From Bacillota bacterium (GTDB taxonomy: Bacteria; Bacillota; Clostridia; Peptostreptococcales; Anaerovoracaceae), in assembly GCA_029006195.1 (NCBI GenBank), contig JAQXGH010000019.1:1-64000 (forward strand): 64,000 nt of DNA. Direction: 5' to 3'. This document shows, one piece after another, positions 2,453 through 30,820 of the stretch. How positions within the stretch are numbered: the stretch's first letter is position 1; the number at the start of each line of letters is the position of its first letter. Both the position numbers and the translations under genes were made by a program. The notes beneath the pieces were generated by a model that made no database searches, was not told the origin of the DNA, and saw only the letters and a list, made by a program, of their open reading frames with translations.

Positions 2453-3592
2453 ATGTATAAGGAAGCATTACGAGCAGCTTGGGCGGAAATCAATATTTCC
2501 AACTTAGATTACAATATTAAGCAGATCAAGGCTAAAGTTGGCAAAGACATCAAAATCACAGGCATCATCAAGGCTGACGGCTATGGTCACGGCGCAGTTA
2601 AGGTAGCGTCAGTTCTCAGAGCTAATGGCGTTCAGTCATTTGGCGTTGCAACACTGACGGAAGCAATCAAGCTTAGACAGGCCGGTTATAAAATGGAAGA
2701 AATCATGGTTCTTGGTCTCACACCAGATCCATATGTAGATACAATCGTTAACTACGACTTAACACCTGTTGTTTGCAGTTACTCAAATGCAGCTGCAATT
2801 TCAAAGGCTGCAAAGGCTGCAGGCAAAACAATCGAAGGCTACATCGCAGTTGACACCGGTATGGGCCGTATCGGTTATATCCCAGAAGATCCATCAGCAG
2901 TTGCTGACGTTAAGTCAATCAGCACTCTGTCAAACTTCAAGATCAAGGGTCTGTTCTCACACTTCGCTACTGCTGACGCAGCAGACAAGAACTATGCACA
3001 GATGCAGGAACAGAGATATATAGCTTTTGCGAAGAAGCTCATGAAAGAAGACATCGAACTTCCAATGAAGGCTTTAGCAAACAGTGCAGCTATCATGGAA
3101 ATTCCAGATGCACACTTCAATCAGGTTCGCCCTGGTATCATCCTTTACGGACTTTACCCATCAGACGAAGTTGACAGAAACGAGCTGGATCTTAAGCCAG
3201 CAATGTCAGTTAAGGCAAACATTGTTCACCTTAAGAAGGTTCCCGCAGGCACATCAGTAAGTTATGGCCGCAAGTGGACAGCAACTGAAGACAGCCTGAT
3301 TGCTACAATTCCTTTAGGCTACGCAGACGGTTACCCTCGCCCATTCTCAGGCAAGGCTCAGGTTATCGTTAATGGTGTCAAGGCTCCAGTCGTTGGCAAC
3401 ATCTGCATGGACCAATGCATGGTTGACGTTACACACGTACCATATGTACGCATCGGCGACGAAGTAACTGTAATGGGCAAGGACGGCATCTACGAAATTT
3501 CAGCAGATGACATCGCAGATGCAACAGGCACAATCAACTACGAAATCGCATGCGCATTCGGACAAAGACTGCCGAAGGTTTATGTATATTAA
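2453..3592 (+). CDS. alr: Alanine racemase
   Basis: A PLP-dependent racemase of 379 residues that interconverts L- and D-alanine to supply D-Ala for peptidoglycan. The N-terminal TIM barrel carries the PLP lysine (Lys40 in KADGYGHG), and the C-terminal beta domain carries the second catalytic base, Tyr271 in SVSYGRKW; GNICMDQCMVD and PLGYADGYPR are typical Alr blocks. A TTG codon 39 bp upstream stays in frame, but the ATG at 2453 is preferred because GAAGAGAGG lies about 10 bp before it and the family starts here (YKEALRAAWAEI). A terminator follows directly, so it is the last gene of its unit. Confidence 0.95.
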   Translation: MYKEALRAAWAEINISNLDYNIKQIKAKVGKDIKITGIIKADGYGHGAVKVASVLRANGVQSFGVATLTEAIKLRQAGYKMEEIMVLGLTPDPYVDTIVNYDLTPVVCSYSNAAAISKAAKAAGKTIEGYIAVDTGMGRIGYIPEDPSAVADVKSISTLSNFKIKGLFSHFATADAADKNYAQMQEQRYIAFAKKLMKEDIELPMKALANSAAIMEIPDAHFNQVRPGIILYGLYPSDEVDRNELDLKPAMSVKANIVHLKKVPAGTSVSYGRKWTATEDSLIATIPLGYADGYPRPFSGKAQVIVNGVKAPVVGNICMDQCMVDVTHVPYVRIGDEVTVMGKDGIYEISADDIADATGTINYEIACAFGQRLPKVYVY

Positions 3593-3649: not shown

Positions 3650-3710
3650 TGCCAATCCCGACAAGTTTACTTGTACATACGCCCATTTACCGCCAATACC
3701 GACAAGTCCA
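3650..3710. repeat. CGACAAGT repeat block A (left flank of nuclease gene)
   Basis: Two GCCAAT-(C/A)CCGACAAGT units (cores at 3659-3666 and 3700-3707) 41 bp apart, with a head-to-head partner ACTTGTAC at 3669-3676. The block 3652-3707 matches block B (4791-4848) over about 55 bp with roughly seven to nine differences, in the same orientation. It therefore forms an imperfect direct repeat around the nuclease gene. Confidence 0.8.
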
Positions 3711-3726
3711 AGCTATAACACGGCCG

Positions 3727-4602
3727 TCACCTCACCATTCTCATCAAGATCCGGCTAACCACTATGTGCTCAATGTCGCTGATCGACAAAATGTCACTTT
3801 CATAAGTCACAATAAAATTGTCAAAGTGCACCGCACCGCTTCCTCTAAGTGCAGAAATCTTCTCCGCGTTATGGTTGCGGTAACTATTCAAATCAACTCT
3901 CCCTAAATGTTCCCAGATAATAAGTTGCCCATTAGGAAGCATAATCGAAAAATCCGGATAGTACGTCTTATACTTTGGCGCAATCATTTCGCCTCCGATT
4001 TCCATCCACTGCACTTCCACTCGCAGCCCCTGCTCGTAGCGGTAAGGAATACCGAAAGCCTCCAAAACATTTCCGATTGCTTGCTCTGACTTGGACCTCA
4101 CAGCAACACCCGCACTGGTCCTATACTTTAGCTGCTCAGGGTATAGTTCATTTTTCTTATACTCCGCCTTGCTCCACTCGTACTGCTTCGCCGAACATGT
4201 AATCCTCATTATATCGAGGCCCGCATCTTGAAAAACATCCAAAAGCTCCGCCGTACTGCTATATAAGCGCCTAGTCTTTTCAAGCTCGACATTCTGCCCT
4301 GCTTTCAAATACGCCTTGGCCTTTCGCGCGAAATTTAGATCATCTTTCAATTCTTTTAGCAGGCACTCTAAGTACCGGCGCCGTGCCAACTTATACACGA
4401 GCTCCTTATTTCTGGTAATTCCCTTATTTACTCTACCCATGTGATTCGAAAAATAGTAATGATTCCCATCCTTCGCTATCGCCAGCTTCCCGGCCGGAAG
4501 CCCAGCCAGCTCATATTCCAACGTTTCACTCAGTGCAAGCTCCTGTTCGACAGCCTCACAAAGCACCTCCCTAAAATATCCAAATCCCGCCGTCCCTTTC
4601 AT
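3727..4602 (-). CDS. Uncharacterised PD-(D/E)XK-like nuclease protein flanked by repeats
   Basis: A 291-residue protein without signal peptide or membrane segment. The C-terminal half looks like a restriction-endonuclease fold: RSKSEQ (Glu173), YYPDF (Asp217) and IIWEHLG (Glu231) match the E...PD...E pattern of PD-(D/E)XK nucleases, though a His takes the place usually held by the x before Lys. The N-terminal half (YYFSNHMGRV, a basic LARRRYLECLLKEL helix) resembles a family of hypothetical proteins I associate with Clostridia, often in several copies per genome. The start chosen is the ATG at 4602, preceded by AAGGAGGGG; an in-frame ATG 30 bp upstream lacks a site. Unlike its neighbours, which use AGA for arginine, it uses codons such as CGG CGC CGG, suggesting transfer. 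Blocks of CGACAAGT repeats stand on both sides. Function is unknown. Confidence 0.6.
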   Translation of the reverse strand: MKGTAGFGYFREVLCEAVEQELALSETLEYELAGLPAGKLAIAKDGNHYYFSNHMGRVNKGITRNKELVYKLARRRYLECLLKELKDDLNFARKAKAYLKAGQNVELEKTRRLYSSTAELLDVFQDAGLDIMRITCSAKQYEWSKAEYKKNELYPEQLKYRTSAGVAVRSKSEQAIGNVLEAFGIPYRYEQGLRVEVQWMEIGGEMIAPKYKTYYPDFSIMLPNGQLIIWEHLGRVDLNSYRNHNAEKISALRGSGAVHFDNFIVTYESDILSISDIEHIVVSRILMRMVR

Positions 4603-4640
4603 AGGCCCCTCCTTTTTCCCACATATTACCATTCGCTTGC

Positions 4641-4851
4641 AAAGCCTACAACCTACTTGTCGTTTTTCAGTCAGAGACTTGTCCAGTATCTTTATACACT
4701 TTGTTTTTTACAAGTTTTAGCCGCTAAACTTGTCCGAATCCGCCGCCACTGCCTGCTTGGTCAAGTGCCCCTTGCCTGTGGCTGCCATCTAGTCCAATCT
4801 CGACAAGTTTACTTGTACAAACGCCCAGTTCCTGCCAATCCCGACAAGTTG
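4641..4851. repeat. CGACAAGT repeat block B (right flank of nuclease gene)
   Basis: The non-coding stretch between the nuclease gene and the purL terminator holds at least seven copies of the core in both orientations: ACTTGTC near 4654, 4677 and 4728, ACAAGT near 4709, and CGACAAGT at 4801-4808 and 4841-4848, with ACTTGT at 4811-4816. The part at 4791-4848 is a direct repeat of block A. Its beginning (GCAAAGCCTACAACCTACTTGT, then TTTTTCAGTCAG) is shared with block C near 30669-30710. No open reading frame is seen here. Confidence 0.8.
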
Positions 4852-4908: not shown

Positions 4909-7900
4909 TTACTTGAAGTACTTAACAGCAGCTTCGAACATCTTCATGTCGTATTCGCCGAGTACATTCTTGTAGAGGCCTTCGCCGATTCTTTCAGCGT
5001 GACCCATCTTACCGAATACTCTACCGTCTGGTGAGCACATACCTTCAACAGCGTAGATTGAACCGTTAGGGTTGAATCTGATGTCGTTAGTTGGGTTGCC
5101 GTCTAAATCAACGTACTGAGTTGTGATCTGGCCGTTTGCTGCCAGCTCCTTGATCAGCTCTTCATCTGCCAGGATTCTACCTTCACCGTGTGAGATAGCA
5201 ACTGTGTAGATGTCGCCAACTTCTGTTTCAGCAAGCCATGGTGACTTGTTTGAAGCAACTCTTACTCTTACCAGCTTTGACTGGTGTCTGCCGATTTCGT
5301 TGTATGTCAGAGTTGGGCAGCTAGCATCAGTGTCAATGATCTTGCCGTAAGGTACGAGACCCAGCTTGATAAGAGCCTGGAAACCGTTACAGATACCGCC
5401 CATCAGGCCGCCTCTGTTTTCGAGGAGATCTGTTACAGCATCCTTGATTGCAGGGTTTCTGAAGAATGAAGTGATGAACTTAGCTGAACCGTCTGGTTCG
5501 TCACCACCTGAGAAGCCGCCTGGGATGAAGATCATCTGAGCTTCGCGAGTCTTAGCTGCAAACTTTTCGATAGATTCTGTGATAGCTTCTGCTGTCATAT
5601 TTCTGATTACGATGATTTCAGCTTCTGCACCGGCAGCTTCCATAGCCTTTGCAGTATCGTATTCACAGTTAGTTCCTGGGAATGCTGGGATCAGAACCTT
5701 AGGTCTTGCAACTGGTGCACCCTGATACTTGCATCTTTCTGGTGTTTCGCTTGAAATTGTAGGGATTTCTACGTCAGCAGTTTCGATGTTACATGGATAT
5801 ACTGATTCGAGCTTATCTTCGTATACGCCGAGGAGTCCTTCCAGACATACGCAGTCAGCGCCCATCTTCAGTGCTCTTTCTTCGATTGTTCTACCAAGAA
5901 CAGTACCAGCTTCTACATCGTCTGCAACTTCCAGGATGAATGAACCGTAGTTGTATCCGAAGAGACCCTTAAGGTCAAGTCCTTCTGCATATTCGAAACC
6001 GATCATGTTACCGAATGCCATCTTCATGATTGCTTCTGCAACGCCGCCGATTCCTGGAACGTATGCTGAGTAGATCTTGCCAGCATCGCCAATTTCAGTG
6101 ATCTGCTTGAAAATCTTCTTCAGTGATTCTGTGCATGGAAGTCCGTCTTCATTGAGTTCAGGGCTGATCATGATAACCTTGTGGCCAGCTGCCTTGAATT
6201 CGTTTGTGATGATCTGATCAACATCTGCAGTTGTTACTGCGAACGAAACCAGTGTAGGTGGAACATCGATATCTTCGAATGTACCACTCATTGAGTCCTT
6301 ACCGCCGATAGCTGCTACTTCGAGTCCCATCTGAGCTTCGAAAGCACCCAGTACTGCAGCGAAAGGCTTGCCCCATCTGCTAGGTTCCTTACCAAGTCTT
6401 TCGAAGTATTCCTGGAAGCTGAGGTATGAAGCTTCTCTGCCGCCGCCTGCAGCAACCAGCTTACACATTGATTCAACTACAGCCAGATATGCGCCATGGT
6501 ATGGGCTAGCTGATGCGATAAATGGATTGTATCCCCATGACATGATTGAACATGTTCTTGAATTGCTCTTTTCTACTGAAACCTTCTGAACCATTGACTG
6601 GATCGGAGTCATCTGGTACTTGCCGCCGAATGGCATTGTAACTGTTCCAGCACCGATTGTTGAGTCGAACTTTTCTGAGAGACCCTTCTGTGAACATACG
6701 TTGAGGTCATCTGCCAGTGCCTTATAAGCATCTGTGAAGCCCTTAGCTTCAACATCTGCGATCAGGCTTCCTGAAACTGCTTCTGCTGTAGCCTTTGCAG
6801 CCTTTACTTCGATGTGCTTAGCAGCACCGTTTGTATCCAGGAATGATCTAGCGATATCAACGATTGTCTTGCCTTCCCAGTGCATTACCAGTCTAGGCTC
6901 TTCAGTTACTGTAGCAACTACTGTTGCTTCGAGGTTTTCTGCTGCTGCTAGTTCACAGAATCTTTCTACGTCAGCAGGGTCTACTACTACTGCCATTCTT
7001 TCCTGTGATTCTGAGATTGCCAGCTCTGTACCATCAAGACCTTCGTACTTCTTAGGAACTACGTCGAGATTGATGTCCAGGCCGTCAGCCAGTTCGCCGA
7101 TTGCTACTGATACGCCGCCAGCACCGAAGTCGTTACATCTCTTGATGAGTCTTGAAGCTTCGCCGTTTCTGAACAGTCTCTGGAGCTTTCTTTCTTCAGG
7201 AGCGTTACCCTTCTGAACTTCTGCTCCGCAGCTTTCCAGTGAGCTTACATCGTGTGACTTTGATGAACCAGTTGCACCGCCGCAGCCGTCTCTACCAGTC
7301 TTACCGCCAAGCAGGATTACGATGTCGCCAGCTTCAGGTCTTTCTCTTCTAACGTTTTCTGCAGGAGCTGCACCAACTACAGCACCCAGTTCCATTCTCT
7401 TTGCAACATAGCCGTCATGGTAGATTTCCTGAACGAGGCCAGTTGTGAGACCGATCTGGTTACCATATGATGAATATCCATCAGCAGCTGTCTGTACGAT
7501 CTTTCTATGAGGGAGCTTACCTCTGAGAGTTTCGTTCAGCGGCTTGAGTGGATCTCCAGCACCTGTGATTCTCATTGCTGAGTATACATATGCTCTACCT
7601 GAGAGTGGATCTCTGATTGCACCGCCGATACAAGTAGCCGCACCACCGAATGGTTCGATTTCTGTTGGGTGGTTATGTGTTTCGTTCTTGAACAGCAGTA
7701 ACCAGTCCTCATCCTTACCATCGATGTTTGCCTTGATCTTTACTGTGCAAGCGTTGATTTCTTCTGATTCGTCGAGGCCTTCCATCTTGCCTTCAGCCTT
7801 GAGAGCCTTAGCAGCCAGAGTACCGATATCCATAAGAGTGATTGGCTTAGTTCTACCAAGCTTTTCTCTTGTTGCGATATAGTCGTTATATGCCTTCTGT

Positions 7901-8634
7901 ACGATTTCGTCTTCGAATTCAACGTTATCGATTACTGTATTGAATGTTGTATGTCTGCAGTGATCTGACCAGTAAGTGTCGATCATCTTAATTTCTGTGA
8001 TAGTTGGAACTCTGCCTTCTGACTTGAAGTAATCCTGGCAAACCTTGATATCATCGTAGTCCATAGCCAGGCCCATTGAATCAACCAGAGCCTTAAGACC
8101 AGCTTCGTCCAGATCGTTGAATCCATCAAGTGAAGCTACCATTTCAGGAACATCATATTCCATCTTCAGAGTTTCAGGCATATCCATTGAAGCTTCTCTC
8201 ATTTCAACAGGGTTGATTACGAATCCCTTGATTGCTTCTACCTGAGCTTCTGTTACGTTGCCCTTAAGGATGTAGATCTTAGCAGTCTTAACCAGAGGTC
8301 TTTCCTGCTGTGAGATGATCTGGATACACTGAGCAGCTGAGTCAGCTCTCTGATCGTACTGACCAGGAAGTGCTTCTACTGCGAAAACTGTTTCGCCAGC
8401 AACTATTCCGATTTCTTCTTCAGTCTTGTAGATCATATCGATCTGCGGTTCTGAAAATACGCTGCCGATGCACTGTTCGAATAAAGCATCATCGATACCT
8501 TCAACATCGTATCTGTTGAGAACTCTAACGCCTTCAAGTGCTTCTATTCCAAGGAAAGTTCTTACCTGAGAAAGCAGGCCCTTAGCTTCACTAGCAACTG
8601 CAGCCTTCTTCTCAACGAACACTCTATTTACCAT
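4909..8634 (-). CDS. purL: Phosphoribosylformylglycinamidine synthase, single-chain
   Basis: A 1241-residue enzyme that converts FGAR to FGAM with glutamine and ATP (step 4 of IMP synthesis). It is the large single-chain form, not the PurS/PurQ/PurL complex. The synthetase core holds repeated AIRS-like domains (FKNETHNHPTEIEPFGGAATCIGG near 320, GCGGATGSS) and the C-terminal class I glutaminase domain starts at about residue 985 (KVLIPAFPGTNCEYD) with nucleophile cysteine in GGICNGFQ and the His-Glu pair in SHGEGR. It is the last gene of the purine operon, overlapping purD by 7 bp and followed by a strong terminator. Confidence 0.97.
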   Translation of the reverse strand: MVNRVFVEKKAAVASEAKGLLSQVRTFLGIEALEGVRVLNRYDVEGIDDALFEQCIGSVFSEPQIDMIYKTEEEIGIVAGETVFAVEALPGQYDQRADSAAQCIQIISQQERPLVKTAKIYILKGNVTEAQVEAIKGFVINPVEMREASMDMPETLKMEYDVPEMVASLDGFNDLDEAGLKALVDSMGLAMDYDDIKVCQDYFKSEGRVPTITEIKMIDTYWSDHCRHTTFNTVIDNVEFEDEIVQKAYNDYIATREKLGRTKPITLMDIGTLAAKALKAEGKMEGLDESEEINACTVKIKANIDGKDEDWLLLFKNETHNHPTEIEPFGGAATCIGGAIRDPLSGRAYVYSAMRITGAGDPLKPLNETLRGKLPHRKIVQTAADGYSSYGNQIGLTTGLVQEIYHDGYVAKRMELGAVVGAAPAENVRRERPEAGDIVILLGGKTGRDGCGGATGSSKSHDVSSLESCGAEVQKGNAPEERKLQRLFRNGEASRLIKRCNDFGAGGVSVAIGELADGLDINLDVVPKKYEGLDGTELAISESQERMAVVVDPADVERFCELAAAENLEATVVATVTEEPRLVMHWEGKTIVDIARSFLDTNGAAKHIEVKAAKATAEAVSGSLIADVEAKGFTDAYKALADDLNVCSQKGLSEKFDSTIGAGTVTMPFGGKYQMTPIQSMVQKVSVEKSNSRTCSIMSWGYNPFIASASPYHGAYLAVVESMCKLVAAGGGREASYLSFQEYFERLGKEPSRWGKPFAAVLGAFEAQMGLEVAAIGGKDSMSGTFEDIDVPPTLVSFAVTTADVDQIITNEFKAAGHKVIMISPELNEDGLPCTESLKKIFKQITEIGDAGKIYSAYVPGIGGVAEAIMKMAFGNMIGFEYAEGLDLKGLFGYNYGSFILEVADDVEAGTVLGRTIEERALKMGADCVCLEGLLGVYEDKLESVYPCNIETADVEIPTISSETPERCKYQGAPVARPKVLIPAFPGTNCEYDTAKAMEAAGAEAEIIVIRNMTAEAITESIEKFAAKTREAQMIFIPGGFSGGDEPDGSAKFITSFFRNPAIKDAVTDLLENRGGLMGGICNGFQALIKLGLVPYGKIIDTDASCPTLTYNEIGRHQSKLVRVRVASNKSPWLAETEVGDIYTVAISHGEGRILADEELIKELAANGQITTQYVDLDGNPTNDIRFNPNGSIYAVEGMCSPDGRVFGKMGHAERIGEGLYKNVLGEYDMKMFEAAVKYFK

Positions 8635-15534: not shown

Positions 15535-15628
15535 GAGATGTATTCTGCCCAGACGAACGACAATTATCACCTCTGTCACTCCCCTGCGGTGCCCCGCTAT
15601 CGTCAGTCGTGACAGGTTATACATTACT
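15535..15628 (-). ncRNA. ZTP (pfl) riboswitch in the purE leader
   Basis: The leader RNA of purE contains the conserved halves of the pfl motif: CUGUCACGACUGACG pairs with the later part of CGCAGGGGAGUGACAG, and a downstream arm ends in CGUCUGGGCAG. These match the known ZTP/ZMP aptamer, which senses 5-aminoimidazole-4-carboxamide ribotide triphosphate when 10-formyl-THF is short. After it comes a small hairpin (AATACA/TGTATT, 15518-15538) and a U-rich stretch before the ribosome binding site, a possible expression platform. Control of a purE-to-purL operon fits the known targets. Confidence 0.88.
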
Positions 15629-30559: not shown

Positions 30560-30820
30560 TATCTTGAACTTGTCTGTTTACGCATATTTTCCGTATTATT
30601 ACAAGTCACACCCAGCCCAACTTGTCGGTTCTGTCCATTAGTGCCCATTTTTTCAAGTTTTAGCCCTCTGCAAAACCTACAAACTTGTACAGCCCACTCT
30701 TTTTCAGTCAGCTCGACAAGTTAACTTGCCATATACCTCGAAAGAGCCGAAACCCGACAAGTCCACCGCTCCGCCACTTGTAAAACACCTGCGAAACGCC
30801 AAATCCCGACAAGTCAAGCA
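30560..30820. repeat. CGACAAGT repeat block C between hisF and hisI
   Basis: This gene-free stretch of about 260 bp holds about ten copies of the core in both directions: CGACAAGT at 30714-30721, 30755-30762 and 30807-30814; ACTTGTCG at 30620-30627; ACTTGTC at 30568; ACTTGTAC at 30683; plus partial copies. The parts TGCAAAACCTACAAACTTGT, TTTTTCAGTCAG and CAAGTTTTAGCC also occur in block B. Spacing between cores is irregular (about 15-50 bp). No open reading frame of note and no cas-like features. Confidence 0.8.

Follow-up and report, generated by a model that had tools for sequence, protein, structure and literature searches.

Does a nuclease gene that lies within its own array of short repeats encode the enzyme that acts on these repeats? 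This question arises from a 64,000-nt stretch of Bacillota DNA, referred to as the window, in which a gene for a PD-(D/E)XK-type protein lies between the convergent genes alr and purL (Table 1). A reading based on the letters alone, termed the sequence-only reading in the following, had proposed that the protein recognizes, and perhaps mobilizes, the repeats around its gene. The 291-residue ORF on which this proposal was built was confirmed; its frame ends at 3727, and 4602 was used as start throughout, while an alternative ATG at 4632 would yield 301 aa.

Table 1. Features of the window around the nuclease gene and at the second array.
Feature	Position	Strand	Description	Basis
Alanine racemase gene (alr; Pfam Ala_racemase N and C)	2453..3592	+	flank, outside unit	
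Left array	3652..3707	.	half-sites 3660(+), 3669(-), 3701(+); unit 3669-3707	
Nuclease gene	3727..4602	-	291-aa PD-(D/E)XK-type protein; undescribed multicopy family	sequence, profile searches, alignment, model
C-terminal nuclease domain, coding part (residues 155-291)	3730..4140	-	conserved residues	
N-terminal module, coding part (residues 1-117)	4252..4602	-	helix, three strands, long helix	
Right array, upstream of gene	4655..4849	.	units 4677-4715, 4728-4766, 4811-4849	
Right-array half-sites	4655(-), 4677(-), 4709(+), 4728(-), 4760(+), 4802(+), 4811(-), 4843(+)			
Phosphoribosylformylglycinamidine synthase-type gene (purL)	4909..8634	-	flank, convergent with alr, outside unit	
Gene-less array	30568..30814	.	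motif and unit as at nuclease gene; units 30568-30606, 30683-30721, 30724-30762, 30776-30814	

Direct repeats indeed bracket the gene, as two 56-nt copies (3652–3707 and 4794–4849) that are 89% identical. The right-hand segment is real but longer than had been claimed, with an array beginning at 4655, and although copies of about 55 bp exist, the basic unit is a different one: two inverted half-sites, ACTTGTC and GACAAGT (mapped with at most one mismatch per half-site), whose starts lie 32 nt apart and which follow the consensus ACTTGT-N25-CGACAAGT. CGACAAGT occurs 12 times in the window compared to 1.4 expected occurrences, and none of 100 shuffles reached this number. Eight −/+ pairs at 32 nt were identified in the 64 kb, four around the gene (starting at 3669, 4677, 4728, and 4811 with one mismatch per half-site allowed) and four at 30568–30814, between HisF-like and PRA-CH (HisI) genes that have no nuclease gene between them. 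No other −/+ spacing from 8 to 79 nt recurred three times, and the sole other spacing of this range that did, +/− 9, is likewise confined to the arrays. In the genome as a whole, eight units were found at zero mismatch, all of them in four array places (C13, two on the window contig, and C37); with one mismatch, 28 of 32 units lay inside these places, and the reversed control pattern gave 19 matches. Gene-less arrays of this genome are the one at 30.6 kb on the window contig (C19) and those on C13 and C37. On C37 (L112, 3105–4233), a pair of similar gene-less arrays, separated by about 920 nt, flanks a 183-aa ORF whose only match, to HTH_7, is weak and does not reach the family cut-off.

A search for paralogs of the 291-residue protein revealed a multicopy family with seven places in its own genome, that of the window included, and with matches in 46 of 49 genus genomes, its own among them, reaching up to 16 in one genome. 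In a sample of the phylum, 22 of 398 genomes had a match, several of them weak or inside much larger open frames. The window protein had no Pfam or NCBIfam match above cut-off, and no description of such a family was found in the literature searched (few subscription journals and no preprint servers). The family appears to be large and undescribed, and its members are probable DNA-cutting enzymes. T162, R169, E173, D217-F218, E231-H232-x-G234, and Y241 are invariant in 18 sequences; across 56 aligned sequences, E173, D217, and H232 never vary and E231 hardly does, and these residues stand where the sequence-only reading had placed them. The usual PD-(D/E)XK lysine is absent, being replaced in WEHxG (EHxG). 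An AlphaFold model (mean pLDDT 90.7) comprises an N-terminal helix, three strands, and a long helix, followed by an alpha/beta core with the conserved residues. Using Foldseek, no PDB entry matched this model at E 0.001 or better, and TnsA was among the weak matches (probability 0.75, E 0.55). Profile searches gave a weak match to endonuclease I of the phage T7 type (E 0.19) and, among viral models, matches to TnsA-like, homing endonuclease, and endonuclease I models (E 1.6e-3 to 3e-3) as well as to models named DUF559 and mismatch endonuclease; four better viral models (3e-5 to 4e-4) are named ROS/MUCR regulator or carry no telling name. The likeness to TnsA, phage T7 endonuclease I, Vsr, and DUF559 nucleases is that of a PD-(D/E)XK-type core seen in weak matches only, without a significant sequence relationship; the present family differs further in its N-terminal module and in being encoded by a stand-alone gene with an array. 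A fold search with the N-terminal module led to no assignment: its matches, to prefoldin-like coiled coils, were weak, and none reached E 0.001.

The C-terminal ~130 residues correspond to positions 1085–1215 of the 1221 positions of PADLOC PDC-S68 (2e-19). PDC-S68 models differ, however, in their length of about 1200 positions, compared to about 290 residues here, and the present proteins have another N-terminus and an array. Nuclease domains within open frames of about 1220–1270 aa, as in PDC-S68, were seen in distant genomes (L277, L279, and L280). A phage or plasmid module was considered and rejected, with one partial match in 72,556 plasmids and one in 50,697 phages (E 1e-5), and none of 27 candidate IMG/VR stretches was confirmed. 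Within the window's own genome, a paralog that is 53% identical (L002; G000:C39:173-820) is interrupted by an in-frame TGA, which suggests that copies turn over. Upstream of another paralog (L020, 4960–6080; G000:C44), we noticed by eye apparent copies of the gene's own 5' end together with ATATGGAAA repeats, stretches that look like decayed partial duplications.

To score arrays, the commonest 7- or 8-mer on both strands of the adjacent noncoding DNA (≤1200 nt per side) was compared to dinucleotide shuffles, and a z value ≥4 was taken as an array. In the genus set, where the loci tested were mostly best-scoring matches and not a random sample, an array was present beside 49 of 83 homologs compared to 10 of 201 control genes, which were not adjacent to a homolog. 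Further homologs from named records gave similar proportions (28 of 43 versus 4 of 107 controls). Pooled without a duplicate contig, 76 of 125 testable homologs had an array compared to 17 of 368 control genes, some of the latter being counted twice. When the proteins were grouped at 70% identity, 63 of the 104 clusters included an array-bearing member. One-direction tandem repeats without alternating half-sites, such as those with periods of 17, 53, and 13 nt in L171 (6840–6950), L174 (5292–6515), and L190 (1460–1525), respectively, were counted as arrays in this test. Five of the ten positive controls of the genus set are themselves gene-less arrays carrying the motif of a family gene of the same genome, which applies to the 30.6-kb array of the window (two neighbors), to TATAGAA in L061, and to ATCTCGAA in L123 (two neighbors), the motif of the L124 gene of that genome.

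The remaining 49 testable homologs, including the own-genome paralogs L017–L021 with scores below 4, have no array by the z test. These 49 homologs could be taken to mean that the repeats are due to chance, or are ordinary intergenic repeats unrelated to the gene. We regard this as practically negligible given the difference between homologs and controls, a 10.5-bp period that is absent from control repeats, and the exchange of the array as one block with the N-terminal region (both described below). The motifs are private to the genes and differ even between family genes of one genome; examples are GGTGTACA, CGTGACAA, ATTCTATA, AGTCTCCA, TGGACAA, and TAGATACA, besides others. The expectation of one CGACAAGT motif for the whole family is not borne out. 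At the own-genome paralog loci L002–L008, for which CGACAAGT was the only motif searched, it was absent, and because motifs differ between genes, a search restricted to CGACAAGT would wrongly refute the idea of gene-linked repeats. Regarding position, 39 of the 76 arrays lie only upstream of the gene, 28 only downstream, and nine on both sides, as at the window gene. Weak motif calls are unreliable; the word called automatically for L102 is a secondary one, and inspection by eye gave CAACCAC, similar to the L104 motif, as the likely motif of this locus. A supposed motif switch at the L106/L107/L109/L110 locus was dropped, the called word of L106 being probably not its half-site, as both L106 and L107 contain TCATAA/TTATGA sites, close to TCATGA of L110.

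Across the family, adjacent motif copies alternate in orientation (174 of 228 pairs in the genus set and 100 of 143 in the named-record set; 228 of 306 after collapse at 70% identity), in Butyrivibrio L188 and L206 every 31–33 nt. Same-orientation spacings, counted once per array, cluster at 41, 52, 62–63, 73, and 84 nt, and a period scan peaked at 10.25–10.5 bp. With one spacing per array (n = 61), a period of 10.5 bp gave the highest R (0.66) in a scan from 8 to 14, and control repeats (n = 60) gave 0.11 at this period; the phasing tests include related genes, which are not independent. Alternating half-sites at multiples of 10.5 bp speak for protein binding on one face of duplex DNA: the spacing is what cooperative binding to one helix face would need, pointing to double-stranded sites. 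A reading in which the inverted pairs, like REPs, work in a folded single-stranded form of DNA or RNA was put aside as very improbable, because spacings between separate pairs are helically phased too, which hairpins do not need, and because no Rfam family reached its gathering score in the window arrays (window 1–40000 scanned). What could be said for it is that the pairs, being inverted repeats, might fold into stems enclosing loops of about 20 nt, and that the alternation resembles BIMEs (PMC2817692).

The strongest evidence for a link between protein and motif is provided by two block exchanges, one at groEL–hslO and one in Butyrivibrio. At groEL–hslO, the nuclease halves of the L102, L104, and L105 proteins are almost the same, but L105 differs in the first ~110 residues; the motifs are GTACAA in L105, AACCACT in L104, and CAACCAC in L102 (the last by eye). 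Between L102 and L105, the DNA flanking the block of array plus N-terminal coding region is 92% identical on one side and 86% on the other, and the block itself does not align except for patches of 40–46 nt. Likewise, Butyrivibrio L184 and L206 have the left flank (81%) and the C-terminal coding region (78%) in common and differ in the array and the N-terminal region; compared to L201, one patch of 76 nt aligns. The L184 genome, which lacks a TACGTGA-type gene, contains zero TACGTGA units, and such units are present in the six other genomes searched. As the array and the N-terminal coding region change as one block while the flank and the nuclease half are kept, the N-terminal module probably reads the motif. 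From these relatives we infer that residues 1–117 of the window protein would be its specificity domain. In Type I restriction specificity subunits, swapping the DNA-reading module switches the recognized sequence; in the present case, the module is replaced jointly with its presumed target array, within a single block of DNA.

Comparisons were also made over all pairs, with a shared motif defined as similarity above the 97th percentile. The motif was in common in 58 of 59 pairs with an N-terminal identity ≥0.5, most of which are Butyrivibrio orthologs and not independent, but also in 59 of 76 pairs with a C-terminal identity ≥0.7, compared to 1 of 62 pairs with a C-terminal identity of 0.5–0.7. 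Outside Butyrivibrio, the motif-sharing pairs (L061/L066, L083/L128, L098/L099, and L060/L065) are same-locus orthologs with alignable flanking DNA, so the common motif may there reflect plain descent. L098 and L099 had first passed for different loci, since no neighbor protein matched; their flanking DNA aligns on both sides, and the argument for a travelling unit was dropped. Joint travel of gene and array is suggested solely by L188, which has TACGTGA in common with other Butyrivibrio genes and of which the gene aligns but no flank does. Taken together, the gene and its signals appear to change, and probably move, together.

Evidence for movement comes from empty sites and from arrays without a gene. 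For the window locus, alr was never adjacent to purL within the available sequence of 29 relatives' alr loci, and the empty-site test was therefore made at groEL–hslO. There, the groEL terminator is directly followed by hslO in three close relatives (G005, G037, and G021), whereas G033, G010, and G006 carry the array and the gene in one orientation between the two genes. At groEL–hslO, G007 carries a 298-aa member (55% identical) in opposite orientation and G003 a shortened 203-aa family ORF with an adjoining TTTTGACAA array. Family ORFs also lie downstream of groEL in G019 and G020 (L255 and L259; 130 and 304 aa). More generally, 36 of 105 homologs are located between convergent genes compared to 111 of 965 background pairs, a comparison that includes related, non-independent genes.

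Dispersed arrays were found in G014, where the motif of one of its family genes occurs 70 times, compared to three occurrences of the reversed control. Of 20 places fetched, 16 are alike over up to ~230–265 nt (70–93% alike), 11 contain two −/+ pairs 32 nt apart and five contain one, and a family ORF is present at just one of them (L312, beside the known gene); inner spacings are mostly 62–63, 73–74, or 84 nt. In an alignment of 15 elements of this one genome, from which L313 was left out as a copy of L306, the ends are inverted, with L311 and L312 only partly alike. Inspection of the aligned elements by eye revealed no target-site duplication, and their ends are fuzzy. Beyond G014, a single family match (C43) was found in the Butyrivibrio YAB3001 genome (that of L202), which carries units at six more places spread over five other contigs, and the Su6 genome has one further unit place. 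The motif of G016 is not dispersed and clusters only at its gene (6 of 21 copies). Together with the gene-less arrays of the window's own genome, the empty sites and dispersed arrays indicate, at the level of sequence comparison, that the unit or its array moves. In being gene-less, about 230–265 nt long, inverted at the ends, and present at many loci, the G014 elements are like MITEs of DNA transposons, but their presumed partner is a PD-(D/E)XK-type nuclease, their sites are phased pairs, and no target-site duplication was seen. A classical two-ended transposon would also differ from the family at large, in which no more than nine of the 76 array-bearing genes have arrays on both sides.

These elements might also be moved by another enzyme, with the nuclease genes riding on the arrays or attacking them. 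The G014 elements, with no visible target-site duplication or identified donor, would suit this, and mobilization by the nuclease is something we infer. Yet under such a scheme it would be hard to see why motifs differ between genes of one genome, why the array and the N-terminal region are exchanged together, and why the genome with the exchanged gene (L184) has no units of the old motif; we rate it as improbable. The reading we prefer, and hold to be rather probable on sequence grounds, is that of a two-part enzyme whose own array is its target and part of its own mobile unit. The N-terminal module would read a half-site of 7–8 bp and the C-terminal PD-(D/E)XK-type domain would act as nuclease. 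As a dimer or higher assembly, the enzyme would bind two inverted half-sites ~32 bp, i.e., three helical turns, apart, and the phasing of arrays would bring every bound copy onto the same side of the DNA. A cut or nick in the array may then allow the array, with or without the gene, to enter intergenic spacers by copying or transfer, with gene-less arrays and MITE-like derivatives as the outcome. Direct support comes from the array–gene linkage, the gene-specific motifs, the phasing, the block exchange, the empty sites, and the dispersed gene-less arrays, whereas binding, cutting, and mobilization are presumed activities of the nuclease. The original proposal of recognition, and perhaps mobilization, is thereby supported as far as sequences go, by the local arrays at 76 of 125 testable relatives, by arrays that change with the N-terminal part at two loci, and by gene-less arrays of the same motif elsewhere. 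A bolder version, which we advance tentatively as a serious possibility, would be a new class of mobile element, in which a nuclease of PD-(D/E)XK type, its reading module of ~117 residues being exchangeable, serves as transposase on helically phased arrays of its own half-sites, several nuclease–array pairs with different motifs coexist per genome, and specificity changes over time as array and module are swapped as one cassette.

Doubt concerns mainly the direction of action: the nuclease itself may move the arrays, or it may be controlled or restrained by them. In the latter case, the array would be an operator or sink that regulates or titrates the nuclease, for instance by keeping a defense nuclease inactive, and would be neither cut nor moved. 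Helical phasing suits cooperative binding of this kind, the array ends some 20–55 nt before the start codon at Butyrivibrio L188 and L206, and the nuclease domain resembles the C-terminus of a candidate defense protein, PDC-S68. We nevertheless consider this explanation unlikely, as 28 of the 76 arrays lie solely downstream of their gene, gene-less arrays are present at other loci, the dispersed G014 family has inverted ends, and housekeeping genes stand on both sides at the window and groEL loci, the two neighborhoods annotated.

The closest known parallel is the REP/RAYT system (REPtron, with REPINs and BIMEs), in which an enzyme gene lies beside cognate short repeats of alternating orientation, enzyme and repeat change together, and gene-less copies are dispersed (PMC2817692, PMC8266576). 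The nuclease family is alike in its cognate alternating repeats, in enzyme–repeat co-change, and, clearly in G014 and the YAB3001 genome, in dispersed gene-less copies. Coevolution of enzyme and repeat was seen at two loci by block exchange, the pairs matching in N-terminal module and motif being mostly same-locus orthologs. The enzymes, however, are different: RAYTs are HUH (Y1) transposases related to IS200/IS605, whereas the enzyme here is of PD-(D/E)XK type, and the window protein had no Y1 transposase match in Pfam, NCBIfam, or PHROGs. Furthermore, REP/RAYT units always have two inverted flanking repeats, whereas the array is one-sided in 67 of 76 cases here; the GTAG tag found there has no counterpart, as neither GTAG nor another tag is common to the consensus motifs; the half-sites here are short, phased at 10.5 bp, and look like duplex sites; and several genes with different motifs occur per genome, at low to moderate copy number. 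The comparison with REP/RAYT elements made by the sequence-only reading therefore holds for the logic and fails for membership, with no sign of an HUH tyrosine transposase and with sites that look duplex and helically phased.

With the likely target adjoining many family genes, specificity becomes readable from the genome, and a family without a Pfam, NCBIfam, or significant solved-structure match is now linked to a likely target. The 63 array-bearing protein clusters can serve as a table of ~117-residue modules and 7–8 bp targets for learning a recognition code, and exchanges at one and the same locus open the emergence of new specificities to direct testing. Should it be the enzyme that moves the array, REP-like repeat systems would have evolved on at least two occasions, from unrelated nucleases; a REPtron-like world would have been invented a second time with an unrelated enzyme, along with a natural library of matched module–target pairs. 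Two minor observations concern the window's own genome. At a further paralog (L007, 1946–2090; G000:C41), an 18-bp repeat in about eight copies lies, by its coordinates, within the coding frame, and the window itself carries a ZMP/ZTP riboswitch at 15540–15620 on the minus strand.
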